Assembly: GCA_030386875.1 (NCBI GenBank)
Contig: CM059576.1
Location: 15,876,058 to 15,940,057 of the forward strand
Origin: Morinoia aosen
Taxonomy: Eukaryota > Arthropoda > Malacostraca > Amphipoda > Talitridae
Length of the DNA stretch: 64,000 nt
Reading direction: 5' to 3'
In this document: positions 2,204-58,034 of the stretch, piece after piece
Layout of the letters: each line of letters starts with the position of its first letter
How positions within the stretch are numbered: the first letter of the stretch is position 1
Notes under the pieces: model-generated
What the model was told of the DNA's origin: nothing
The model's database searches: none
What the model saw: only the letters and a program-made list of their open reading frames with translations
Position numbers and translations under genes: made by a program

Positions 2204-3380
2204 ATGAAAATTTGTCTGAGCAAAAGTGAGGAATGTCTTGAATCGTCCAATTGTGTTGTAAGGTTTGGAAGTATAAATGTGCGTGGATGGAATGCAGGAA
2301 AGTTAGAAGACCTTGTAGTAGAATTTGAGAACGGAAAATTAGAATTTGTTGGTGTAGTTGAGACCCAAATGCGCGATAGAGTCAGTTTAACATGTAAGGA
2401 GAATAAGTTTAATATGATAGGAAATGGGCGCGTAAATTGGCAAAAAAAGAGGTGGTGGAGTTGGTCTGATTGTAAAGAGTGCTTTAGACTGGAAATTAGA
2501 GGAACTTTCTGTTGGAAATGAACCTGAAAGTGAAGATTTGTAACCAATTAAGTGTAAAAGAATGCATGCCAGAGAATGCATTGTTGTGATTGTATGTTAT
2601 ATGACAACTGATGGGATTTTAGCTCATGAAGAGAATGTAAAAAAGTATAGAACATTAACGAGGATTGTACGAGAACACTGCAGGTGCCCTCTGATTGTGA
2701 TGGGTGACATGAATGGCCATGTTGGTATACTTGGTGAGCCGGTAAATGGAAATGGACAAAAATTGATAGATTTTTGTGATGAGAATGAACTTGAAAACCT
2801 GAATGTCACAATAGGAAATGGCTTGCATACATGGCAAAGCAGGGAATGTGTTGCATACATGGCAGCAGGGTAGAGCAAGAGAGTGTGTCAAAGAAATGTA
2901 TGTAGATGAAGATGATTTTGAAATTGATAGTGACCATAAAATGCTTGTGCTTGAATATAATTGGAGTGGAGAGGAGTCAATGCAGAAGTTCAGTAGTGTG
3001 AAAGAAAGTTGGCGGATAAAGGCGGAACAAGTGTGGAAATGTAAATGACCTAAATGGTGAGATTGCAAGAACCTTGTATGATGTAGCAGAGCAAAAGGCA
3101 GAATGAAATACAGGAAAGGGACAGGGAAAGCCAGGGGGTTTACAAGTGAGATAAAGGAAGAACGAATGAGAAGAGACTTTAAATAAGAAACAAAACAGTT
3201 TGAGGAAAATGTATTAAAGAAACAGAATTACTGAGGATGAATGGCAGAGTGCATGGAATGAGTATAAGGATCAGCAGAAGAAAGTAAGGAGAATGATTAA
3301 TGAGGCTAGAGTTGAAGAAGAGAGACAACAAATTGAAAATCTAAGAAAGAAAGGTCCGGATGGAATAAAAGATTGGTATA
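2204..3380 (+). pseudogene. LINE ORF2, endonuclease domain (decayed)
   Basis: Several broken frames encode an AP-type endonuclease. Visible blocks, in order: a start like RFGSINVRGWN (about 2262), VGVVETQM (catalytic Glu block, about 2350), IVMGDMNGHVG (Asp-x-Asn block, about 2695) and SDHKMLVLEY (Ser-Asp-His block, about 2930). These nick target DNA for target-primed reverse transcription. At least three frame changes or stops separate the blocks (for example the stop at 2519-2521). The linker after the domain runs to 3380, where the Penelope element begins. ORF2 resumes at 7637. Confidence 0.7.
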
Positions 3381-4806
3381 ATTGTTAAAATAAAGGACGT
3401 CTTGGTAGTGAAGTTTCCATTTTTCAAATTTTTGGGATCAGCAAAGACAAAATTAATTTTTAATTTTTTGACCCAAGCTTTCGGCTAGATTAGCTCTAGC
3501 CGTCATCAGGGGAACGATGTATTTTTAAACAAAACCTCTTATGGTATCCGCGGGTATCTAGTGTACAAAACATTTTTTTTAAATTTTTACATGCAAGCCG
3601 AAAATCATTGATCAAGGGCGACTGATGAGCATAGGAAGAAACTGCGGGGGGACATCAAGATGACGATTAATTTTCTTAGGTTCCTAAACACTGTACATTG
3701 CTTCGACAATTTTTCGAGCGTATTAATTTTTAACATTTTATAATATACATACATTTTCAAAATCAAAAGAATGGTTATCTTCTTCCGAATGCTAATAGAC
3801 AAGGGATAACCTATTCTTCCTCTGCACATTCTTCGCATGCTCATCAATTCGTTGTTAAAGATTTCTACCCGTTTCCCCAATGTAACATGCTTCACAATTT
3901 TTACATTATAATTTATATATAAGATTACTTTTTTCACAATTCTATCGTTTATCTTTAAGTCTGATTAGGCTGTTTTTTGTTGTATTTGAAGATTTGAAAG
4001 CCAATTTAACATTGAATGGTTTTAAGATTCGCTGGACTCTTTCAGAACAACCTTTAATATACGGGACGCTAACATATTTCAGGGGGCGTTAGGAATTTTC
4101 GTTGCTTTATCGAAGTATGGGGAGGTTTTGATTATTTCCACCAATCATTACTCGGTTGCTATTACATAGTTACGGAGGAAAATTATTCTATTTCAATAAT
4201 TAATCCACTGTTGAAAGTTCTTACTTCAAATTTTGCTCACTACAAATATTAACTGCTCTCTGATAAAGGGATTTCGCTACACTCCTCCTCTGTGATAAGG
4301 GATGATAACTGAAATAGTCTAAGTACCTGCCTGTGTTTGTTGGTTTCCGGTAGACCTGGAATTATAATCTATTATTGGTTAATCGATTAATTAATATATC
4401 TAAGTACGGGATGCATCCATTACTTTCTAATTCCATAGTAAATTATATGTTGGTGTTGAACCCATTGATATGCTGGAGGAATGTATCAGGCATATCTTCT
4501 GGTAGTGCAGTCAATATATCGTCAACGTAACGTTTCCAAAACAGTGGCTGGCACGGGGGTGTTGATAGGAATTAATCCTCCATTGCTTGCATTGTTATCT
4601 CGGCCAACGCGACAGAGATAGGGGAACCCATCGGTGTTCCTTCTACTTGTTGATAAATTTTGTGATTCCATTAAAAATGATTAGATTCCAGGCATAGGTT
4701 GAGGAGCCGCAGAATAGCTTCAGTTGAAATCGGAGTTACTTGAAGAGGTGAGTTGAAGTTCTGCAATTTTTCGGCGACACATTAATGAGCAAAAGTTTGA
4801 GGTATG
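3381..4806 (-). repeat. Inverted partial copy of the PLE
   Basis: This is the reverse complement of about 6247-7630 plus the first bases of the PLE ORF. It encodes the C-terminal third of the RT and the GIY-YIG domain on the minus strand. The 110-residue open stretches at 3605-3937 (minus) and 7117-7449 (plus) are identical in translation. The same in-frame TAA/TAG codons are present here as in the direct copy. It abuts the pseudo-LTR at 4806/4807. Homology reaches almost base identity, so the duplication is much younger than the element's divergence from other families. Confidence 0.9.
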
Positions 4807-5037
4807 TCCCCCCGCAGTTTCTTCCTATGCTCATCAGTCGCCCTTGATCAATGATTTTCGGCTTGCATGTAAAAATTAAAAAAAATGTTTTGTACACTAG
4901 ATACCCGCGGATACCATAAGAGGTTTTGTTTAAAAATACATCGTTCCCCTGATGACGGCTAGAGCTAATCTAGCCGAAATCTTGGGTCAAAAAATTAAAA
5001 ATTAATTTTGTCTTTGCTGATCCCAAAAATTTGAAAA
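4807..5037 (+). repeat. Pseudo-LTR (5' copy of PLE tail)
   Basis: This matches 7389-7636 on the same strand. It contains the hammerhead-like core (ctgatga at 4949-4955, hairpin, gaaa at 4976-4979). It runs directly into the ATG at 5038, so the tail of one unit is fused to the head of the next, as in PLE tandems. Confidence 0.85.
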
Positions 5038-7442
5038 ATGGAAACTTCACTACCAAGACGTCCTTTATTTTAACAATTGAGACAAGAAGGATAAGATGTG
5101 TACAAAGCCTCCTGTGAATTTTGCGAGTGTCACGAACGCCTAGGAATTGCAAGGGAATAGCTCCGCTTCAACTTACGATGCAAGAAAAATGACATCATTC
5201 CCAAGTCGCTAAGGATTCGACCCCCAATTCGATCTGCTGAAGCCGTAGAATATTTTCGATAGACCGTCGCTAGAAAATGCTTAACGTTCATGATCAACGA
5301 TGACCACAGAAGAATAAATTACAATCGGAAAAGAATTGAATACATTGAGTTAGAGCTACAAGGAAAAATTACTATTGAATTAGTAAACAGTCTCTAGTAA
5401 GCAGCAACGCTAAAACTGCAAAGAAAGTAACAATTTGAAAAATAACGTCTTAAAGAAAAGTATGATCAACTATCTCAATAGAAAAACCCTACCTTTTAAA
5501 TGAATTGCGTAAAAAACTTGTCAAGCAAACATCTAACCGAAGATTAGCAAAAAATTTTGATGAAAGGAAAAACTTTGCGCTCCCTCATTCTAAGAAAGAT
5601 GAAATTGAATTCCTTGGCAACACGGAAACTGTAATTAGATAACTAACCGTTCCAGAGGAAGAAAAAGCCGTTCTTCGCTCCCGAGTAATAACTGCATTAC
5701 AAAGTAGCTAGCGGGTCACGAATATATCTAGAAAAGAAAAAGTTGCCATTAAAGAATTAAGAGAGGATGACTCAATCGTCATCGCACCTGCAGATAAAGG
5801 GAACTCGCTGGTAGTTTTTGACCGACGAGATTATGAATAAAAAATAGCTGATCACTTAGCGAATAGTAGTACCTATAGGATAATGAACGAAAAAAAAACC
5901 TATTTAGCAGTAAAGAAAGTGAATAAGCTAATAAAATAGTTGAAAGATGAAAATAAACTCACCGACTAATAGCGTAAAGCCTTGTACGTAAACAAGTGCG
6001 TGACCCCCCTCTTCTATGCGCTAATCAAAACACACAAGGAAAACTACCCGATTCGTCCTATCGTATCTTTTATTGATTCACCAACTTATTAAGTTGCAAA
6101 ATTTTTATCGGGAATCCTAACCCCAATTACAAACGAGGCATCGCAAAAACTAAAAAATAGCTTTCAAGTCAAGTAATTTTTGCAAGAAATCAACGTTCCG
6201 GACAATTATATCCTAGTTTCTTATGATGTGAAGAGTTTGTTCACTTGTATACCTCAAAATTTTGCTCATTAATGTGTCGCCGAAAAATTGCAGAACTTCA
6301 ACTCACCTCTTCAAGTAACTCCGATTTCAACTGAAGCTATTCTGCGGCTCCTCAACCTATGCCTAGAATCTAATCATTTTTAATGGAATCACAAAATTTA
6401 TCAACAAGTAGAAGGAACACCGATGGGTTCCCCTATCTCTGTCGCGTTGGCCGAGATAACAATGCAAGCAATGGAGGATTAATTCCTATCAACACCCCCG
6501 TGCCAGCCACTGTTTTGGAAACGTTACGTTGACGATATATTGACTGCACTACCAGAAGATATGCCTGATACATTCCTTCAGCATATCAATGGGTTCAACA
6601 CCAACATATAATTTACTATGGAATTAGAAAGTAATGGATGCATCCCGTACTTAGATATATTAATTAATCGATTAACCAATAATAGATTATAATTCCAGGT
6701 CTACCGGAAACCAACAAACACAGGCAGGTACTTAGACTATTTCAGTTATCATCCCTTATCACAGAGGAGGAGTGTAGCGAAATCCCTTTATCAGAGAGCA
6801 GTTAATAATTGTAGTGAGCAAAATTTGAAGTAAGAACTTTCAACAGTGGATTAATTATTGAAATAGAATAATTTTCCTCCGTAACTATGTAATAGCAACC
6901 GAGCAATGATTGGTGGAAATAATCAAAACCTCCCCATACTTCGATAAAGCAACGAAAATTCCTAACGCCCCCTGAAATATGTTAGCGTCCCGTATATTAA
7001 AGGTTGTTCTGAAAGAGTCCAGCGAATCTTAAAACCATTCAATGTTAAATTGGCTTTCAAATCTTCAAATACAATAAAAAACAGCCTAATCAGACTTAAA
7101 GATAAACGATAGAATTGTGAAAAAAGTAATCTTATATATAAATTATAATGTAAAAATTGTGAAGCATGTTACATTGGGGAAACGGGTAGAAATCTTTAAC
7201 AACGAATTGATGAGCATGCGAAGAATGTGCAGAGGAAGAATAGGTTATCCCTTGTCTATTAGCATTCGGAAGAAGATAACCATTCTTTTGATTTTGAAAA
7301 TGTATGTATATTATAAAATGTTAAAAATTAATACGCTCGAAAAATTGTCGAAGCAATGTACAGTGTTTAGGAACCTAAGAAAATTAATCGTCATCTTGAT
7401 GTCCCCCCGCAGTTTCTTCCTATGCTCATCAGTCGCCCTTGA
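5038..7442 (+). CDS. PLE reverse transcriptase / GIY-YIG endonuclease with 35 in-frame TAA/TAG codons
   Basis: The frame opens at ATG 5038 and ends at TGA 7440-7442, about 800 codons. There is one apparent single-base loss in an A-run near 5482-5486. Domains in order: N-terminal region (about 5038-5480), RT core with DKGNSLVVFD (about 5793), LIKTHKENYPIRPIVS (about 6022), VSYDVKSLFT (about 6215), GTPMGSP (about 6415) and the catalytic RYVDDIL (6522-6542), thumb with YLDILINR and VYRKPTNTGRYLDYFSYHP (about 6650-6755), then GIY-YIG (CYIGETGR, about 7167). 24 TAA and 11 TAG codons interrupt it; there is no in-frame TGA. Many TAR codons fall at positions where Gln is usual, for example NI-TAA-FTMELE and HF-TAA-WNHKIYQQ. 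About 29 CAA/CAG codons are also used. The simplest reading is a gene using UAA/UAG for Gln. Under the host code it is a pseudogene. Confidence 0.8.
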
Positions 7443-7543
7443 TCAATGATTTTCGGCTTGCATGTAAAAATTTAAAAAAATGTTTTTTACACTAGATACC
7501 CGCGGATACCATAAGAGGTTTTGTTTAAAAATACATCGTTCCC

Positions 7544-7575
7544 CTGATGACGGCTAGAGCTAATCTAGCCGAAAG
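7544..7575 (+). ncRNA. Hammerhead-ribozyme-like core in PLE tail
   Basis: The segment reads CTGATGA, one unpaired base, a 6-bp hairpin (GGCTAG/CTAGCC with a 7-nt loop), then GAAAG. Hammerhead motifs are known in Penelope-like elements from animals. The copy in the pseudo-LTR (4949-4979) and the inverted copy carry the same bases. The extra base after CTGATGA departs from the textbook core, and stems I and III were not modelled, so self-cleavage is not shown. Confidence 0.5.
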
Positions 7576-7636
7576 CTTGGGTCAAAAAATTAAAAATTAA
7601 TTTTGTCTTTGCTGATCCCAAAAATTTGAAAAATGG

Positions 7637-9840
7637 AAAGATTGGTATAAGTTTATACAAGGTAATGATAGAGGTAGTGAAGTTCAAGTTGATGAATTGG
7701 AGTCAATAGTTGCAGTGTGCGAGATAGGATGCAAATGATGAAAGCAGTTGAAGAATACTAGGTGGACATTGGTGGAATGAATGAGCAGGTTACAGATGAT
7801 GAACCCATAAATTTTCTGATTAATGAACAGGAACTGCAAATGGATAACGAAATCACTTGTGAGGAGATTGTAAGTTTTTTGAAGAAAGTGAAAAATAGAA
7901 AAGCATGTGGCCCTGATAAGATCCCATTTGAATTCTATAAATGTGGAGGAGAGAGTGTGGTCGGTATGTTGAAAAGTGAATTTGATGAGATATAGAAGAG
8001 TGAAAGAGTACCGGATGACTGGAACAAGTGTAATGTAGTCTTGTTGCATACTCGTAAGGGTGGGCATAAGAGTATGAAAGAACTTAAAAATTGCAGATCA
8101 ATTGCACTGGCTGACAATGTATGTAAGATATTTTGTGGTATTTTGAATGAGAGAATGAAACATTTAGTAGAAGAACTAGGAGTCCTAGGTAAAGAACAGA
8201 ATGGGTTTAGGCAAGATAGACGTGGTGAGGATAATCTGTTTGTGGTGAGTGAGATAATTGAACGAATGAAGAAGGATGATAAGAAGCTATAAATAGCATT
8301 CCTGGATATTGAGAAAGCGTATGACAGAGTGGATCGTGTTAGGCTGTTTGAAATTTTGAGAAAAGTTGGTTTTAGCAGAAAAATAGCGAAGATTGTACAG
8401 AGTCTGTATGTGAACACAAGTGCTATCTACAGGTTAGGAAATTTGGAAACAGGGCAAGTGAGGAGTGCTAGAGGAGTGAGACAGGGCTGTACTCTGTCTC
8501 CCCTGTTGTTTGGATTGTACACCGAAGAATTAGCAGTTTGAATGAGAATGAATGGCTTAGGACTGAAAGTTGGTAATGAGAGATTGAGCTATTTGTTGTA
8601 TGCTGATGATGTGGTTGTGGTTAGTGAATGTGGACATGAACTGCCAAGGATGCTTGACATTGTGAATGGATTTAGTACAGATTTCAAGATGAATTTTGTT
8701 GGCGATAAAAGTAAGGTCATGGTTATAAATAGTGATGAAACTGATAGAGACAGACTGTGGAATTTTGGAGAAATCAGAATAGGGAGAACAAAAGAATACA
8801 AATATCTAGGTTGTATGATAAGTGAAGATGGATGTACTAGAACTGAAGGTAAGAAAGTGGTAAAAGCAATGCAGTGGAGTGGACGGTTAGGTAGTGTGGC
8901 CAGATACAGAGCAAACAAGTATGAATGTGTGAGAGGAATGTGGAAGTATGCTGCTGTACCTAGTTTCATGTATGGTATGAGTGCTCTTGCCTGGTATGGA
9001 AGTGATCTTGAGAAGCTGGATGTGATACAAAATAAGGTAGGACGTTCAGCATTGGGTGCTCCAAAATGGACAGCTACTGAAGCCATTAGAGGTGACCTAG
9101 GGTGGAGCCTATTTTCATAAAGAACGATGAAAGCGGTGCTGAATTATAAGGTGAGAATTAAAAGGATGCAGAATAGCAGGTGGGTAGAGTGAATTTTTGA
9201 ATGGAATCCGAGTGTAAGCTATTGGGAGAAAGTGTGTTGGGGGCATTCAAGGAAACTTAGTATGCAAACGATTATTCATGTTAGAATCGGAAGACCTGTG
9301 GATGACTGGAGTTTAATATACGTTGGAGGTGTAGGGCCTGAGTGGGACTGCAAAAGGTGGAAAAAAGAGATGGAGAGGCAAACAAAAGAGTATGGATTGA
9401 ATGAGTGGAAACTTAGCATGATGCGGAAGCCTACACTTAACTGGTGTATGAAAAAGGAAGCACCTAAGTTTGAGATGTTCTATGATGGTAGTTTTGGAAG
9501 TCAACTCTTGTTTGCTGTGAGATGTAAGTCATTGAGTGTGAACAGACGTACATGGAGATGGAATGAGAATAATAACAGATTATGTCGGAAGTGTAATAGT
9601 TGAATGGAGGAAACAATTGAGCATTTTGTGCTGGAATGTAGTTAGTATGAGCAAGAGAGAGTTTCTTGAATGTGGTGTCTGAGCAGTATGGAGAGAATGA
9701 GTGGTATGCCAGATGGGCTGAAGATGATTACGGTATGAGCTGTCTTGCTGGATTGGATCAGGAGAGTAATTTGATTATCATTGAAGCTATGAAAATGTTT
9801 CTTGTGCGAGCCTGGAAGAAGAGACAGTGACTGGAATGAG
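7637..9840 (+). pseudogene. LINE ORF2, reverse transcriptase and C-terminal domain
   Basis: The frame resumes after the PLE. It contains KKVKNRKACGPDKIPFEFYK (about 7880-7940), then SIALADNVCKIF, NGFRQDRRGEDNL, AFLDIEKAYDRVDR (RT motif A, about 8299), GVRQGCTLSPLLFGLY (motif B, about 8476) and YLLYADDVVVV (catalytic YADD, about 8590). A conserved thumb follows, then a C-terminal stretch with CRKCNS, EETIEHFVLEC (Cys/His tail, about 9580-9650). Stops at 7993, 8290, 8539 and others, plus frame changes, break it. It polymerises cDNA at the endonuclease nick in active relatives. The breaks are of all three stop types, unlike the PLE. The motif set fits the CR1/Daphne group. Confidence 0.85.
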
Positions 9841-11063: not shown

Positions 11064-13375
11064 CGCTAGGGGCTGTTGGGTGATATCATTCTACGACACA
11101 TGGTAGTTACAAAACTAATATCAGCTTCAATTCCAAACTTTCACAAGTTTGCAGTCGATGAGACACGCGTTGTTGTTTCAAACTGCATGGGAAATGCAGA
11201 GTTGTGGTCGACATGTTCACTACAAGCATTGTCTTTTCATCATGACTTTTGTTTTAGGAACGCAAGTTGCACTCTGATCTCAAATTTGATATCAGAATAT
11301 AATAAATATTTAGAAGCGTACATTCGTGCTCATTTTTATTGATCAGCGCAACTAGTGGATCTGTCACATTTTGTCAATCTGTGTCACTATCAGGTGTCAT
11401 CAAAATCAGTTTATGTGCCAATAATCAGGGCCGTACGTTATTCTGTCTCTTGTGTTTGTAACGGAAATGCTTTCCTACCTAACACATTTCAATTGGCCAT
11501 CCGGTTGTCGAGCAAAACGGTCCTAACCTCATGTTAAAGTTCGTTCAACCACGTGCTAGTCAGCAGGTGTATATTTTACCTGAATTTATATGCATTATCA
11601 AACCCACAATAAATCAACAAAGGGAACATGATATATCTTTCCCTTAACCGTTTGTTTGATATTTAACATGACTGCGGAGGTGCACAAATATGTTTCTGTG
11701 TTGAGAGCATTGAAATATCATCGATACCGTGGTTTTTTATTGAAAATAAAACGATTCACTTTCTTTTCATACTTCCTTTCAACAATACTGAAGAATGTCT
11801 TTTTGTATCGCGGTAACATGATTTAATTATCGAGAAAGAATCACCCCACATACATCAAAAACTAAGCAATGAATTTAGAGGAAAGTTTGACGGAATGTAA
11901 GCATTTTTGATGCGCGCAAGCTAGGGAAAGCTTTGCATTCTCATGGTAAGCTGCAATGAATAATGGCATTCGTTCTGGACAACTGGAGGTTGTGCGTGTC
12001 GAGCTATTAGCGAAGGTTAATGAAACGCGTCAAACACGTGAAATAATTACTTCCATTCTTTGTATCTGTAATGATATGGAACTGTGAGCATCGAAATTAT
12101 CACGAAAACCATTAAATGATCCCCTATTGTAATTTAAATGAACATACATACGGCATTAGCATGATAAATGCATTCTTTCTGGGGGATGACAAGAATAAAT
12201 TGTAGATGCATAGAATTTGGTGAATGTAATATCTTATTGCAGTATTTTATGTCCACAGGAGCTTCTCGCAACTCATATTTGTTCATGAACTGACGTCTCA
12301 GTAGAATAAACAAGGTCACCTTCAAACCACTCTTTTTTCCGTCGACCGCGTGGCCTTGCTGACGTCATGGCAACCAACCAAAAGATGCGTTCATACTGCA
12401 TCTGGGAACAGTGCGTGCCCCAAATCTAGCACCACTATTGGCCAACGACATATCGTCTTGGTGACGTCATAAAGTGTGTTTGAAATGAAGCCGGTCTATT
12501 GGCTAGCCGAACAAGAGGTGTATTTTATACCTCCCATAGAAATGACCCTGCCGTGTTTCCTCCATCGTGACTTACGTCCACCCGCGGGAAGTTTTTCTCT
12601 CAGAATCCTCCTCAGGATTTATTGTGTTTTAAGCTGCAAAATACGCAGTGCAATTGATATTCTGAAGCGTATTTTTTTTTGAAGCCACTAAGGCGTTTAT
12701 TTTCAAGCGAGAGGCGTTATCTTGCATGGAAATATTAATTTTCATTAATGAAAAGCAGTTAAAAACAGATCAAAGCTCTCTAAAGTTACATTTGGCCTTA
12801 CATTCTAGCTTGAGCGACCTAATCCGCTCATTTGTCCCCGTATTTATTCGCGCATATTTGATCGAGAGAAACCAAATTGATCTGAAGACCAAGACCGGTC
12901 AGTATTACGGGTATGAAAATTTACATTCTCGATGAAAAATACAGAAACAGTTGAAGATGCTGACATTACCTTTCGAAATATAAAAAGAAACCTCCCTGGT
13001 ACCACACCCCTAATTTTTGAATACGAAACATAAACGGTACAATTCCTGAAAGTTGATACAATAAATTCAACACAAGGATTTTCAGAAAAATCTTAATACA
13101 AAGAGCGTTATATCTAATTTGAGGAGACACCGTAGCGCCTATTCTAATATCTAGAACAGTAGCTAAATTAACAGAGGACATAGCAGCAAATGTGCATCCT
13201 TAGCTACAAATTAGAACACATGCAGAAATGTAAAATATTCTACTAGTAAAACGGCACGGAAACGTTAATGCGTTGATACAGCAAGAGTTCGAAGGTTAAT
13301 TTCCAAAGAAGTTTTTAAACGAAATTCATCACAATGAATTTCAATTTTGAAAAATGATTAACTTTAGATTAAGAT
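11064..13375. other. AT-rich stretch without a recognisable gene
   Basis: Open frames here are short and show no family motif. No tandem repeat, terminal repeat or splice-supported exon was found. This is probably decayed intergenic or transposon sequence. Confidence 0.4.
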
Positions 13376-13755
13376 TAAGTTTATGATTAAGATTAGATTA
13401 GTCGTTAGTTTTAGCCTCCCTACCCGCTGCAACAAATGCGATCCAAAGAGAGGAAGGAGGAAGGCACCATTTAGTATGGAGTTAAGGAAACGCGGAATCT
13501 ACGCAGAAAGGACATAGAAACAGTAAGTTGAGAAAGAATATTATGAAACAAGACAAAAGTTGAAAAAGCAAGTAGTAGGTGGTGAAAAACAGGACAGCAG
13601 TGAACCGAAAATAGGTGGTCCTCAACATAACATAAGCATTTTATTTCAACAAAAAGGCCTACCTAACATACAGCTCGGGCCCTCACATTGTCCCCCTGTG
13701 AGCGATAATTCCCATGGATACAATAATTGTATGCCCCTGAGAGGCTTAACGTAAA
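13376..13755 (-). mobile_element. SINE-like family copy 1
   Basis: A member of a dispersed family of about 350 bp (other copies: 16981-17305, 19599-19957, 20325-20665, 34641-35001, 39507-39861, 45187-45262, 45270-45635). Shared blocks on the + strand, in order: tttagcctcc, gaaggcaccatttagtatgg, cagcagtgaaccgaaaa, ccctcacat, cccatggatacaat and a C-rich end. The left side is a simple (attag)-type run, so the retroposon reads on the minus strand with this run as its 3' tail. Confidence 0.75.
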
Positions 13756-14419
13756 GAGGTTAAAGTAAAAGACACCCTGTCCGAAGCAGACATCAGCTGT
13801 GTTAGGGGTTTAGTACTTGATTGACATACATGAAATTAAAATCTATTCCCTCGGATATCTTCCTTTACACACCACGACTGGAAGCTCATCAATACGGTCA
13901 ATACTAAATAATGTCAGGCCGGACAGTCTCCTCTTACATCCGCACAAGAGCTCAGGCTGCCGCAGCAGGATTAAATTTTGTAGAAGGTATAATGGAGGGA
14001 AATAAATTATTTTGCCTCGATAACCAAAAGTCGAAGTCTTAGAAATTTTGGGACTAATTTTTCCTGTGTACATGTCAATAAAACGCGCCTGCCAACTCGG
14101 CAAACATGATTTATAAAACAAAAACATTTTGTGTTAAAATTTCTACCAAAATAAGGCAGGCACAAAAGATTCCCAGTAGTCAGACACGAGGAAGAGCAGC
14201 CGTCGCACGAGACTAATATGAACATTTCACCATCAAAAAGAACGCTAAACAAAAATGAAAGTTTGTTGAAACATAAAAGGTTATGTTTTCGCTTATGGGG
14301 AACTCCTCATAATAAAATTATTGATATCAAGATGTGAAATAAAAATGTTGGCTTTAAGCTTGGAAAAACGGAAATACGTGAAGCACTTGACCGAACAAAC
14401 CAAAACACCGCCCTTAGTG
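13756..14419. other. No gene seen
   Basis: Short overlapping open frames occur on both strands, but none has family motifs or splice signals that I trust. Nothing repetitive was noticed. Confidence 0.35.
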
Positions 14420-35062: not shown

Positions 35063-36362
35063 TTAAGGAGATCATCCGGGGCCCTTGCCAGATCCTGTCG
35101 ATGTCATGGTCATTTTGCATGTTTTTGTTGTAGAAGGACCCTTAGTTGGTGGACTATTCGTTCCTAAAGTTTTATGGCGCAACGACAATAATTACCCCCC
35201 TCCCGAGGGGGGTGAGGGGACCAAAATTTTCAACTTTTTCCCGATTTTGACTCCATATAATAAGGGAACAAATGGGAAATGAAAAAAAAACGAATTTGAG
35301 TGTGTTAGAAATGTTCCAAGGATTCTAAAACTGTTTTTGCTTTTGTTCTAGCATCAAAACTGAAGGAGGAATTCCATTTTGAAATATCAATATCAATGAA
35401 AAGCACCCAAAATGTTTAACTTCTTCCTGATTTCGACCCCATATATAAAGAGAACAAATGGCAAATGGAAAAATTTCGAATTTGAGTGTGTTAGGAATGT
35501 TCCAAGGATTCTAAAACTGTCTTTGCTTTTGTTCTGGCATCAAAACTGAAGGATGAGTCCCATTTTGAAATATCAATATTAGTGAAATATCAATACCTAA
35601 AAACCAATTTGTCAAATTTTTGCAAAATCTAAGGCCTGAATCAAAAAAATGAATGAATTCAATTGTATTTCTTTTCAAAGGTTACATATCATAATCAAAT
35701 TTCATAAGAATCAGACTGAAAATAAAAAAAATCATTTTTTTTATAAAAAAAGAAAAATTTTATAATTTTTTTTTTAAATCACAATTCACAGTTTGAATAT
35801 GAAGTTATGTATGGAAAGTATCGAAATAAAAATTAAAACTGCATTCAATTACATCAATTGTTCATTATATTACACTTCAACAAAAAATTTTGTTTTTTGC
35901 TTATACCCAACACTTTGAATTTTCAACATTCATCCTGGAACTAGTTCTCGAGTTTTGATGCTAGAACAAATCCAAAGACAGTTTTAGAATCCTTGGAACA
36001 TTTCTAACAAACTAAAATTCGGCTTTGTTTCAAATTCGAATTATTTGAAGAAATATATAGCTCTAAACCCAAAAAATTGTTGCTGATTTTTGAAATTTCA
36101 AAAATTATTGAAAAAATAGAAAAAATTTGAATTTGAAACAATGCCGAATTTGAGTTTGTTAGAAATGTTTCAAGGGTTCTAAAACTGTCTTTGTTTTTGT
36201 TCTAGCATCAAAACTGAAGGAGGAGTTCCAATCTGAAATGTCAATAAAAATATACCAAAAACACATTTTTCGTAAAAAAAAACTAAGGCCTAAATCGAAA
36301 AAAATGACATGAGTAAAATAGGTTTACTTTCACAAAAGACATGTACTGGCCAATTTTCAAAC
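35063..36362. repeat. Unknown 1.3-kb repeat, copy A, with internal direct and inverted motifs
   Basis: It is colinear with 47863-48975. It starts ttaaggaga and shares gtttttgttg, aaggacccttag and tggtggactattcg. A 60-70 bp motif (atgttccaaggattctaaaa to gttctagcatcaaaac) occurs near 35310, 35490 and 36165 on the + strand and inverted near 35945-36010. It ends with tactggccaattttcaaac. No coding capacity was recognised. Copy A is followed at once by a Penelope fragment. Confidence 0.7.
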
Positions 36363-36943
36363 CAATCAGACGAAAAACTTTGATAAAACGTTTTTTAAAT
36401 TCCAAATATAGCTTACCGGCCAATCCCGTCGATAGTACAAGAAAGAGATTATACTTACCTTTTTTATACTTTGGGCCTAAATCTGAACAAATGAGAACAG
36501 AGCTTGTCAAAATTCTTCACTCATATTTACCTGATGTTGATTTTAAAATTATTCTTACAAACAAATTCACTATAGGTTCATTTTTCAACTACAAAGATAA
36601 ATTACCTTCCAGCATGCGCCGCTCTCTAATATATGAATTTCGTTGTGCACTATGTGCATCTAGTTATGTAGGCTCGACCTGCAGAACTTTGGGCGTTAGA
36701 GTAGCGGAGCATGCTGGACGTAGTAGCCGCACTGGAGGGATTCTTGCCCATCCCCCCCACTCCTCGGTGCGCCTCCATAGTGAACAGTGTGGCTCCAGTG
36801 TACAGTGCAGTAATTTTAGCATTTTAGCTTCAGCCAGCCATCAGAATGATTTAAGGATTTTAGAGTCCTTGTACATTTTTAAACGTAAGCCGCCTCTTAA
36901 TGAAACTAATAGTGCCCATCCTTTGTACATAGTTTCTTCTTGA
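36341..36943 (+). CDS. PLE C-terminal GIY-YIG endonuclease fragment
   Basis: About 200 residues. The segment YLPFLYFGPKSEQMRTEL through FFNYKDKLPSSMRRS is the typical region before the nuclease in Penelope proteins. Then FRCALCASSYVGSTCRTLGV matches the GIY-YIG core (Tyr-Val-Gly form) and RVAEHAG the Arg/His-containing motif, with RILESLYIFKRKPPLNE near the end. The domain makes the DNA cut that primes reverse transcription. The frame is open and ends in TGA. The first residues may belong to the preceding unknown repeat. Confidence 0.8.
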   Translation: MYWPIFKPIRRKTLIKRFLNSKYSLPANPVDSTRKRLYLPFLYFGPKSEQMRTELVKILHSYLPDVDFKIILTNKFTIGSFFNYKDKLPSSMRRSLIYEFRCALCASSYVGSTCRTLGVRVAEHAGRSSRTGGILAHPPHSSVRLHSEQCGSSVQCSNFSILASASHQNDLRILESLYIFKRKPPLNETNSAHPLYIVSS

Positions 36944-53796: not shown

Positions 53797-54787
53797 ATGG
53801 CGGCGGCTGGAAAGGCTGCGTCAGCTGAGGTAGCTGACGCAGCTGAGAAGGCTGCGGCAGCCGGAGCTGGCGATGCGGGATCGCCGGTGCCGCCGGCGGG
53901 GAGCACGTCGGGAGTGCTTGTGGATGTTAGCCTGTTAGCTAACATCTTGACTCAGGCGCGTGGTCTGATCCTCGACCGGTTGTCTAGGCAGCTGCCTAAG
54001 TTGACTGGCGATGGATCGGTCGACGCGCTGGAGTGGCTGGAGAACCTGGAGAGGCTCTGCCAGCTGGAGCGGGTAGCTCCGACCGACGTCATCGGGTTCA
54101 TGCTCGACGGCAACGCCGCTCGGGTGTTTCGCTCTATGACTGTCGGTGATGCTGCTCAGTGGCAGGTAGTTCGGTCTACGCTGGTCTTGCAATTTGCGTT
54201 GCCTATGCAGGAGGCGTATAGGCGGTTCACCTACCGTCGGCTTGCAGCCGGGGAGTCGGTGGACGTGTACCTGGATGACTTGGCGCGTCTGGGTGGGAGA
54301 GTGGGCTCGACTAAGAAGGAATTTGATTTTTAGGGTCAAGTTCTACGAGGGTCTTCCCACTACTCTGTATACTTGGGCAGTTCCGCGTGAGGACGCGTAT
54401 ACTGCGCCGTTCGATGCTGTGGTGTCGAAAGTGCGGGAGAGAATGGCCGCACAGAGGGCTGCAGCCGGGCGAGGCCAGGAGGCCAGGCTCGGAGCAGACC
54501 TTGCTGCTTCGGGGAAGCAGGGCAGTGGTGGCAAGGGTGCTTGCTACCGCTGTGGCGGTGCACACCGCGTGCGGGTTTGCCCGCTGAAGCAAGGCGCTGC
54601 GGCGCCTGCTGGTATGGGGGCCATGAAGGCTCCCGCTAAAAGGAAGTTCGCATGCTTTGCGTGTGGAGAGGTCGGGCATTTCGCTTGCGACTGTCCGGCG
54701 GTAGGTAGGCCTACGGTTGGTGGGTCGGGTATCTCTGCGGAGGACGCCAGTCGGGGCGACGCGTCCTCCTCAATGGAAACCTTGTAA
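53797..54787 (+). pseudogene. Gypsy-type gag with two zinc knuckles (one frameshift)
   Basis: The start ATG at 53797 opens an Ala-rich N-terminus. The gag core follows (LPKLTGDGSVDALEWLENLE, then AARVFRSMTVGDAAQWQ and SVDVYLDDLARLG). A single-base change in the T-run near 54326-54331 shifts the frame, and the protein continues to 54787 with two CCHC knuckles: CYRCGGAHRVRVC-type (imperfect spacing) and CFACGEVGHFACDC. It would form the particle shell and package RNA. Confidence 0.8.
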
Positions 54788-54852
54788 GCCGAGCTTACCG
54801 GAGGTCTCCTCCCCCCGAGGGAGGTGACGGCGCCCCCTCGGAGAGAGGGACC

Positions 54853-55260
54853 TTGAGTGGCACGAGTGTGTCGCTGGGGCGGGGCGATCTAGAATCGCTC
54901 GGAGCGACTGGCGTTACGACGGGGCGTCGGTTGCCAGTCGTTCGTGCCATCTTGAATGGGCATTGTTCTTGGTGTCTGGTAGACTCCGGGAGCGAGCGGA
55001 CGGTGGTTTGTCCGCGGGTGGTGGTGGGCCAACGCCCCCGGCCGGGGCGGCCGTTGCTAACGGCGGACGGCAGAACTTCCCATGTGGGGAAGCACTGTCG
55101 TGTGGTAGTCGGGTTGTAGGGGCATTGCTTTGGTGTCACTGCGCTCGTCATGCCGGAATTGGGGAATCTTGGCGTGGACTGTCTCCTCGGGAGTGATGTT
55201 ATTGATCACATGGGGGGCGTCACCGTTAGGAGAGGTCCTGACTCGAAGTATGCAGTTGAC
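54853..55260 (+). pseudogene. Gypsy-type aspartic protease region
   Basis: CLVDSGSERTVV (about 54970) holds the catalytic Asp-Ser-Gly. A flap-like part and LGVDCLLGSDVIDHMGG follow in a shifted frame (about 55165-55220), where 'LLGSDvi' is the usual C-terminal Leu-Gly block. A stop at 55117 and a frameshift separate the two halves. Confidence 0.7.
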
Positions 55261-55329
55261 TGGGGGAGATCATGGTCAGCGGTCAGCTGGATGCTGTAGG
55301 GGGTCCAGCAATGGATTCGCCTGTGCCAA

Positions 55330-57895
55330 GCTGGGAGCCGGCCTGGTGACAGGGGCGGGGTCGGTGGGGTCGAGAGGTGCGCCAGCGCCGATCGAGATCG
55401 TCGACCCTAACTTTGTTGCTAGGTTCGCTGACGGTCGGTGGACCGTCAGTTGGCGGTGGTATGAGAAGCCGCCCGAGGGGTTGCAGACTCGGATCGCGGA
55501 GTACGGATGTACTCGGGCGCCTCACGTGCGTGAGCGCTATGATGCGGAGATTCAGAGTGGGATCTCAAAGGGTTGGTTGAGGCGATGGCATGGCCCCATC
55601 CCGGGCGTCATTCCGTTGCTGGCCGTCGTGCAACCAACGAAGGACAAAGTCCGTCCGGTCATGGATTATCGTGAGTTGAACGGCTTTGTCGAGTGTCACA
55701 CTGGTGATGACATGGTCGATGTGTGTGGCGACAAGATTCGGAAATGGCGGCATCTGCGGGGCGAGCTCAAGGTCGTCGACCTTAAGTCCGCGTACCTGAA
55801 GATCCACGTTTTCGAGGATCTGTGGCGGTACCAGATCGTGAAGTTTAAGGGTGTGCCTTACGTTTTGAAGCGATTAGGCTTCGGCCTCTCGTGTGCGCCT
55901 CGAATCATGACGGTGATTCTCGGCAAGGTTCTTTCGTTGAACGATCGCGTTCGTCGAGGGACGGACCACTATATCGATGATGTAGTGGTGTGTGAGTCCA
56001 TTCTCAGCGCGCAGGAGCTCCGGGAGCATCTGGCACGGTACGGACTTGTGGCGAAGGAGCCTGAGTGCCTGGATGGAGGCCGGCTGTTGGGAATTTCTTT
56101 ACGGAAAGATGCCAACGGATATCTTCGGATGTCGCGGGGGACTGCTCTCTGCGAGTTTGGTTCGGTGAATGTCGGCTTAACGAAGAGAGGGCTGTTTTCC
56201 TTGTGCGGTCGGTTAGTCGGCCATTACCCCGTGGCGGGGTGGCTGCGTCCTTGTTGCAGTTTATTGAAACGGCTGGGGTGCAGCGGCTCTTGGGACGACC
56301 CGGTTGACGGTTCTGTCAGCTCGTTGGCTGCGGAGCTGTTGGCGCGGGTTCGTCGGGACGACCCTGTTGGGGGCGTGTGGGGTGTCGACTCGCATGGTAC
56401 GGTTACCGTGTGGGCTGATGCCAGCTCCCTCGGAGTTGGTGTGGCCCTTGAGGTCGATGGCCGCATTGTGGAGGATGCGTCTTGGCTCCGAAAAGAGTCA
56501 GACCACCATCATATCAATGTGGCCGAGTTGGAAGCGGTGGCGCGGGGTATCAATTTGGCAATTGCGTGGGGTCTTAAGACCTTCACGGTCGCCAGTGATT
56601 CCCGGACAGTCGTCACATGGATGGACAACACTGTCGATGGCCGCAATCGTGTTCGCACGAAGGGCGCGGCGGAGATGCTCGTGAAGCGACGTCTTGGGGT
56701 GATCCGTGAGACGATCGCTGAGCATGGTCTGGTCGTGTCTGTTCGCTTCGTCTCGACGATCGAGAACAAGGCCGACCAGCTGATCAGGGTACCTAAGAGG
56801 TGGCTTAGTTACCGCGATGGTGGTGTAGCCGTCGCAGAGGTGTCTGCCGTGCTTGCCACTGGAGAGAGTCTCGAGGATGCCATTTGGGCGGCTCATCTGC
56901 CGCATCATTTCGGCATCGATCGGACGTTCTACTTGGCGCGTCAGATCCGTAGTGATCTGTCGCGCGAACAGGTGAAGCGTGAGCTGGCTGGATGCGAGGC
57001 CTGCCAGCGGATCGATCCTGCGCTGCGGGAGGAAAATCTCGTGGAGGGAGGGGATCTGTCTGTGGAGGAGAGTTGGCGCCGGGTTGCGATTGACGTAACC
57101 CATTATGGCAATAAGCTCTACCTGTCATTGGTTGACTGTGGTCCCTCGCGGTTCGCCATCTGGCGACGGCTGCTGAATGAGTCAGCAGCGAGCATTGTCG
57201 CTCATTTACGTGAGGTCGTAATTGAGCGAGGGCTATGTGACGAGTTGCTACTGGACAATTCTACGGCGTTTCGATCAGCGACTGTGGAACAGTTCACTGA
57301 TGCGTGGGGGATTTCGCTGCGATTCCGTGCCGCCTACGCCCCGAGCGGCAACGTGATCGTTGAGAGAAATCATCGGACGATCAAGAGGATCGCCGCCAGG
57401 GGAGGTATCACTCCTGAAGAGGCTACATTTTGGTACAATGTGACGCCCCGGAAGGACACCGAGGCGGGCTCAGTCCCTTCGAGCGGTATTTTTCGGTATC
57501 GCTGGCGAGTGCCGTTCGACGTCAATCTTCGGGTGATTGATGGCTGCGCGCACAACAGCTTTGCTGTCGGTGATGAGGTGTGGGTGAAACCCCCACTGCC
57601 TTCATGCACGAAGCAGTGGACGTCAGGTGAGGTCACCAGCGTCGTGTCAAAGTACGTAGTCTGCGTAGACGGCATGCCTAGGCATGTGCGCGACGTCAGG
57701 AGACGGCGGATTGGTGGTGACCGGGGCCGTGTTCCCGAGAATCACAGGGGCGTTGATGGCGCTGCGGAGCCCGAAGCAGAGCTTCGGTGGAGGTGGCGGC
57801 GGCGGTGCAGCTCCTCTTGCGTTGCCCGAGAGAGTTGTTGTCGACGCACTAAACCCGGCGCCCGTTGTGCCGGCGGCAGAGCACGCGTCGGCTGA
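55330..57895 (+). CDS. Gypsy-type pol: RT, RNase H, integrase
   Basis: A long open frame (part of 55130-57895). RT: IPLLAVVQPTKDKVRPVMDY, DLKSAYLKIHVFEDLWRYQ (motif A), LGFGLSCAPRIM (motif B), HYIDDVVV (catalytic YIDD, about 55970). RNase H: VWADASSLGVGVALEVDG, INVAELEAVARGIN, VASDSRTVVTWMD. Integrase: a zinc-binding part with HHFGIDRTFYLARQI and CEACQRIDPA, then the DDE core VAIDVTHYGNKLYLSLVDCG, LLLDNSTAFRSATVEQF and PSGNVIVERNHRTIKRIA. The real protein starts upstream in another frame, and its C-terminus continues in frame 0 to 58034 (RRSRRERRRPTYLDKYEC). This lineage is a divergent Gypsy group seen in many invertebrates. The catalytic residues are intact. Confidence 0.85.
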
Positions 57896-58034
57896 GGACT
57901 CCCCTGAAGAAGAGGGCGAGGAGCGCAATGCTGTCGACAGTGATACGGCGCCGCAGCAGGGGGAGCCTGAGTCATTGAGGCGGTCACGCCGCGAGCGACG
58001 GCGTCCCACGTACTTGGATAAGTACGAGTGCTAG
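57684..58034 (+). pseudogene. C-terminal extension of pol (shifted frame)
   Basis: A Pro/Glu-rich tail ending in an Arg-rich segment and TAG at 58032-58034, just before the 3' LTR. The frame change relative to the main ORF lies between about 57680 and 57800. Members of this lineage have such a low-complexity, Arg-rich C-terminus. Confidence 0.55.

Follow-up and report, generated by a model that had tools for sequence, protein, structure and literature searches.

Results

The window, i.e. the 64-kb stretch of DNA analyzed here, contains a Penelope-like retrotransposon (3382-7636) lying between two copies of a 14-bp target-site duplication (AAAGATTGGTATAA), which were recognized by comparing the flanks (left copy 3368-3381, identical to the right copy at 7637-7650). 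Its gene comprises 800 codons, running from an ATG at 5038 to a TGA at 7440-7442, both present as previously given, and its product combines a reverse transcriptase (RT) with a GIY-YIG domain. The N-terminal part of the gene (5038-5570, forward strand) lies in frame 1, contains 11 in-frame TAR codons (TAA or TAG) and has an N-terminus similar to those of homologues such as P0004. The C-terminal part (5571-7442, forward strand) lies in frame 0 and holds 26 further TAR codons and the terminal TGA. It yields Pfam matches to RVT_1 (E 2.7e-07), with a YVDD catalytic motif in the translation, and to GIY-YIG (E 3.1e-05, residues 550-588) in the canonical C-terminal position. Two forward-strand pseudo-LTRs (pLTRs) form a direct repeat of 241 nt with 99% identity, the 5' copy at 4804-5044 and the 3' copy, which overlaps the gene end, at 7399-7639. 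The left part of the insertion is an inverted truncated copy on the reverse strand (3382-4805) made up of the 3' half of the gene, a pLTR and the first gene bases, as delineated by the inverted repeats I1 (3567-4805 / 6249-7487) and I2 (3380-3587 / 4871-5078), each with 99% identity. When read with code 6, it also gives Pfam matches for RT and GIY-YIG. Only 9 of 1239 corresponding bases differ between the arms (~0.7%) and the insertion in the window is thus young.

By reading, a motif resembling a hammerhead core (CTGATGA...GAAA) is present in both pLTRs (7544-7574 and 4949-4979), where Rfam gave no match. An RVT_1 match below cut-off lies beyond the right end of the element (8542-9120); judging from this match and otherwise from reading, the Penelope-like element probably sits inside a LINE-type element. 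Elsewhere in the window, a retroelement of ~60% G+C was observed at 54000-58000 (RVT_3 match; rve below cut-off), with other 2-kb windows ranging from 0.285 to 0.53; it may perhaps be of foreign origin itself. The best 120 of 1021 homologues show 32-49% identity to the element protein. In a tree built without named PLE reference clades, the element and 28 proteins, which are predicted frames and presumably use the standard code, form a supported clade of 29 rows, and a profile search against solved structures returned weak matches to maturase and DRT reverse transcriptases.

Read in the frames that the homologues support, the 800 codons include 25 TAA and 12 TAG codons, that is 37 TAR, and no TGA before the terminal one. 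The preliminary description had arrived at 35 TAR codons, a count we could reproduce with a frame switch at 5484 (9 + 26). However, frame 1 continues to match P0004, by eye, up to 'VKNLSSKHLTEDQQKILMKG', and the frame change instead takes place in an A-run at about 5566-5573 (forward strand), which raises the count to 37. Only the window copy has this A-run change, which is absent in the 29 other aligned copies. The lack of in-frame TGA had been taken to distinguish the gene from randomly decayed sequence, and our counts bear this out: TGA accounts for 69 of 219 stops across the five alternative frames (5571 to about 7430) versus none of 37 in the gene, the probability of which is about 8e-7 at the TGA share of the other frames. 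The persistence of CAA/CAG and CGA codons likewise held (29 and 14, respectively, in the same 800 codons). CAA and CAG are one C-to-T step away from TAA and TAG, so that a standard-code element altered by ordinary decay or by C-to-T hypermutation might be considered as the source of the TAR codons. In that case, the complete lack of TGA beside 14 surviving CGA codons would have a probability of about 1e-5, and the CpG observed/expected ratio of 1.06 as well as the mere 0.7% or so of divergence within the insertion also speak against this explanation, which we regard as very improbable.

To assign a meaning to the TAR codons, the 120 homologues (best of 1021) were aligned without the query, which was then added with X at TAR; 35 of the 37 TAR columns were usable while two were dropped due to low occupancy. 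Summed log-odds at these 35 columns were 27.3 for Gln, followed by 8.9 for Glu and 8.6 for Lys, and a mixture fit assigned 0.98 to Gln. None of 20,000 random sets of 35 other columns, and none of 20,000 sets of polar columns, was equally Gln-like, and CAR (CAA or CAG) columns behaved like TAR columns in the same test. The earlier observation that TAR codons occupy Gln-compatible sites is therefore confirmed, more clearly for TAA than for TAG. Using only the 29 closest homologues, the Gln share at TAR columns was 0.75, and the 11 TAG columns alone gave 0.51 for Lys and 0.46 for Gln, so that the assignment of TAG to Gln leans more on the wider homologue set and the genomic copies. In a cruder column test, Gln scored 16.7 for TAA and 2.9 for TAG. 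The same test ranked His (3.4) above Gln (2.9) at nine CAG columns, which are true Gln positions, indicating how noisy the method becomes with few columns. A-to-I editing to Trp was rejected as a candidate, with Trp making up 2% of the mixture at TAR columns. The gene-ending UGA lies about where homologue P0004 ends. TAR/(TAR+CAR) is 0.56, close to the T:C balance seen in Leu codons (TTR/(TTR+CTR) 0.60) and third positions (T3/(T3+C3) 0.595), as would be expected after long evolution under UAR=Gln.

Further copies had been suggested as a check, and the genome holding the window (1.99 Gb, 29 contigs) turned out to contain many, making the element a multi-copy family. A DNA search, in which 40 of 703 candidates were scored, returned 59 matches, 21 of them over the entire query. 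Twenty of these (L009-L028) constitute our full-length set while L031, which is split, was left out. L031, L034, L038 and others comprise partial copies on both strands side by side, like the window element. At the protein level, 68 of 18,567 candidates were scored and yielded 71 matches, of which 68 were long and three short, the latter being stretches without stops. All 68 long matches scored contain many TAA/TAG codons, and none of them is a standard-code sister copy; this holds for the 68 scored of the 18,567 candidates, lower-ranking ones lying outside this set. By our own count, 25 of the 68 contain one to eight TGA codons, and two such matches that were fetched had one TGA each after allowing for frame breaks.

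We aligned 30 copies, from L009 (the window copy) to L038. At the 37 TAR sites, 1065 cells carry letters, of which 1017 are TAR, 23 CAR, one TGA and 24 other codons. Intact all-CAR copies, named in the preliminary description as the observation that would speak against its reading, were thus not seen, neither here nor among the long protein matches. CAR is the majority across copies at the same 29 codons, and the identity of TAR sites and CAR-majority sites over 30 copies is difficult to reconcile with decay or hypermutation. Exchange also proceeds in both directions, with TAR found at the majority-CAR codons 5467 and 6144. Drift to codons for other residues at TAR sites includes shared variants (GAA in six copies at 6882, TTA in three at 6852). 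The terminal TGA is present in 29 of the 30 aligned copies, which together hold a single aligned internal TGA. With code 6, 15 of the 20 full-length copies are open over at least 801 codons, end in TGA and contain 30-38 TAR; some of the open frames in full-length copies begin before the ATG, and small indels occur in L024. Mean pairwise divergence of the 20 copies is 1.6%. The flanks beyond the element differ in 15 loci where visible, except for L023 and L024, which have theirs in common and look like one duplicated locus. Judged by their protein matches (76% and 69%), two copies seemed old. This was rejected, their DNA divergence being only 5.1% (L039, compared with the window copy) and 2.5%, and the low protein identities result from frame breaks.

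Variants among the copies were scored against the majority codon using code 6, with shared variants defined as those in at least two copies and private variants as those in one. Over 30 copies, shared variants comprise 69 synonymous and 64 nonsynonymous changes (S69/N64, dN/dS 0.30) compared with S111/N284, including one stop, for private variants (dN/dS 0.82; Fisher p 9.7e-07). Varying kappa from 1 to 4 yields a dN/dS of 0.26-0.40 for shared and 0.73-1.1 for private variants. Read in the remaining five frames, the shared variants give dN/dS values of 1.23, 1.71, 0.89, 1.76 and 0.54; the last value belongs to a reverse frame (p 0.037) while the remaining four have p values of 0.067 or more. 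Restricting the analysis to the 20 full copies gives 0.30 for shared versus 0.80 for private variants (p 7e-4). Leaving out variant sets found only at loci that are close or duplicated gives a shared dN/dS of 0.24, and those sets by themselves give 0.53; the sets removed (L023/L024, L025/L028, L011/L012/L016, L011/L012 and L013/L017) were picked from positions and tree. Variants common to exactly two copies have a dN/dS of 0.42, those common to three 0.21. On the tree of the 20 copies, internal branches carry S51/N46 and terminal branches S40/N93. Per site, shared variants in these copies amount to 26/800, 18/800 and 50/800 at codon positions 1, 2 and 3 and 9/170 in the non-coding pLTR, while private variants amount to 43, 34 and 48 of 800 and 9/170, respectively. 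The protein read with UAR=Gln is under purifying selection during the spread of lineages, and inserted copies drift about neutrally. As shared variants are constrained and private ones are not, the spreading lineages were making a functional protein read in this way. We therefore reject a decayed standard-code element, for which neither all three kinds of stop codons nor neutral shared variants were found.

Host genes look standard, in line with what had been proposed based on a single zinc-finger gene. Among HSP70-like matches in the genome (53 scored of 348 candidates), 48 contain no stop codon and five contain one. Sampled ends of HSP70-like frames are TAA in six of seven cases and TGA in one, and in L043 and L044 the TAA follows an EEVD end. 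Three other TAA ends (L041, L042 and L046) belong to HSP70/DnaK-like frames on contig C27; they look DnaK-like and are thus weaker witnesses for the code of the animal. Their C-termini have what we take to be a bacterial or organellar look instead of the animal EEVD, and bacterial insertions or organelle-type genes are possible. From other RT families, eight loci were retrieved; their open frames span 731-1229 codons and terminate in TAA (6), TAG (1) or TGA (1). Within the window, a zinc-finger frame of 611 codons contains no TAR, ends in TAA and has its best match in an amphipod crustacean. The animal is probably an arthropod, as this match hints; a LINE search returned no close names. The assembled host might nonetheless be thought to be a UAR=Gln organism itself, as 8 of the 12 standard-code window frames of at least 250 codons, not all of which are genes, end in TGA (TAA 3, TAG 1). 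In view of the largely stop-free HSP70-like matches, their TAA ends, two of them after EEVD, the zinc-finger frame and the RT elements ending mostly in TAA/TAG, we give this possibility hardly any weight. With respect to other UAR-coded genes in the window, nine of 41 code-6 frames of at least 280 codons were given to Pfam, and only the inverted copy of the element matched. A 494-codon code-6 frame (12745-14226) looks non-coding by eye, meaning that long TGA-only frames arise here without being genes.

Discussion

Taken together, we are highly confident that a Penelope-like family resides in animal chromosomes in which UAA and UAG encode Gln and UGA is the sole stop, while the sampled host genes look standard, and that it was under selection in that code as its lineages spread and drifted nearly neutrally once inserted. 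The two central claims of the preliminary description, TAR as Gln and a standard host code, hold up. As to how this came about, it proposed either that the element entered horizontally from a UAR=Gln genome or that stops are suppressed; both are putative, and no donor was found. Horizontal transfer of one element in particular does not suffice, because the family is multi-copy and selectively constrained and a single transferred copy would be dead on arrival.

The element protein is probably made by something other than the ordinary protein machinery of the animal. Selection persisted while the copies branched, which a single transfer, dead on arrival, would not allow, and no all-CAR helper is present among the 68 long matches scored; this favors master copies in a UAR=Gln organism. 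Such masters would belong to an organism close to the animal and would repeatedly seed its germline, a tentative proposal, both in the place of translation and in the route, to which we assign somewhat less than an even chance. Source copies of new insertions would have their protein made in a cytoplasm where UAR means Gln, the most likely owner being a protist, such as a ciliate or hexamitid, in close association with the animal. Element RNA and the RT/nuclease of the protist would repeatedly enter germline nuclei, where target-primed reverse transcription into host DNA could generate the tandem and inverted partial copies, pLTRs and target-site duplications. Copies would be dead on arrival inside the animal because each message contains about 37 stops. 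The code together with translation outside the animal's machinery is, as a whole, the explanation we consider likely. What counts against repeated seeding is the need for many transfers in order to account for dozens of dispersed insertions, which is unprecedented to our knowledge. No UAR-coded relative or donor was confirmed in IMG/VR and GTDB contigs, collections that are viral or prokaryotic, so that this result carries little weight.

Amplification within the host would explain the copy number more simply, but the animal must then read UAR as Gln. This could be achieved, for example, by a tRNA-Gln with a UUA or CUA anticodon together with lowered eRF1 in germ cells, with the soma remaining silent. 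The germline would thereby read UAA/UAG as Gln well enough for this protein, and the element, hidden from somatic translation, would amplify and evolve under selection there. No donor would be needed to account for the copy number, the dispersal of the insertions and the purifying selection within one genome. However, 37 UAR codons demand a very high per-codon efficiency (0.5^37 is about 7e-12), the sampled HSP70 genes and other RT elements of the host mostly stop at TAA/TAG, no tRNA was found in the 64-kb window, and we know of no animal with a UAR=Gln nuclear code. We thus consider in-animal recoding unlikely. Slightly more doubtful still is the arrival, once or a few times, of several UAR-coded lineages whose RNAs were then copied in trans by the RT of a standard-code Penelope element belonging to the animal. 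A second GIY-YIG/PLE-like frame (36341-36943, forward strand, 200 codons) in the window is open in the standard code, as recognized by motif and with no Pfam match, and could represent such an enzyme; the about neutral private variants would also fit. Copying in trans should, however, make shared variants neutral too, and given the dN/dS values for variants common to two and three copies, many separate lineages would have to have arrived. In addition, no standard-code sister close enough to recognize the RNA is found among the 68 long matches scored.

A multi-copy animal transposon family has evolved here under selection in a code that its host appears not to use, whereas deviating codes are commonly regarded as an obstacle to the exchange of genes. 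Either mobile elements pass between codes time and again, leaving an organism with UAR=Gln for the germline of an animal, or there is an animal in which stop-codon recoding is specific to the cell type. Our results also suggest that standard-code annotation may wrongly label such families as dead and that similar ones may be overlooked; in the literature searched, we found no UAR-coded transposon in an animal.

Among known systems, Naiad elements are Penelope-like elements in which UGA is read as selenocysteine. The element described here likewise belongs to the Penelope group and has recoded stop codons, differing in that UAR is read as Gln at 37 sites. In NCBI code 6 (ciliate, dasycladacean and Hexamita nuclei), UAA and UAG encode Gln and UGA is a stop, which is what the element uses, with TAR and CAR interchanging. 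In contrast to code-6 organisms, where the whole nucleus is recoded, this applies here to one mobile element in an animal genome with standard sampled genes. According to PMC11167929 and PMC3846280, Penelope/Poseidon-group elements combine an RT with a C-terminal GIY-YIG nuclease and possess pseudo-LTRs. The window element resembles them in its pseudo-LTRs, partial tandem and inverted truncated copy and target-site duplication (variable in PLEs), and in that such elements can sit inside another retrotransposon. Unlike in them, its gene uses UAR=Gln throughout, while copies described in PMC3846280 contain one or two in-frame stops, as damage. Finally, PMC10879173 describes phages with UAG recoded to Gln via suppressor tRNAs. 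Unlike in these bacterial viruses, no tRNA was found with the element in the window, but like them, it is a genetic parasite with a code unlike that of its host.
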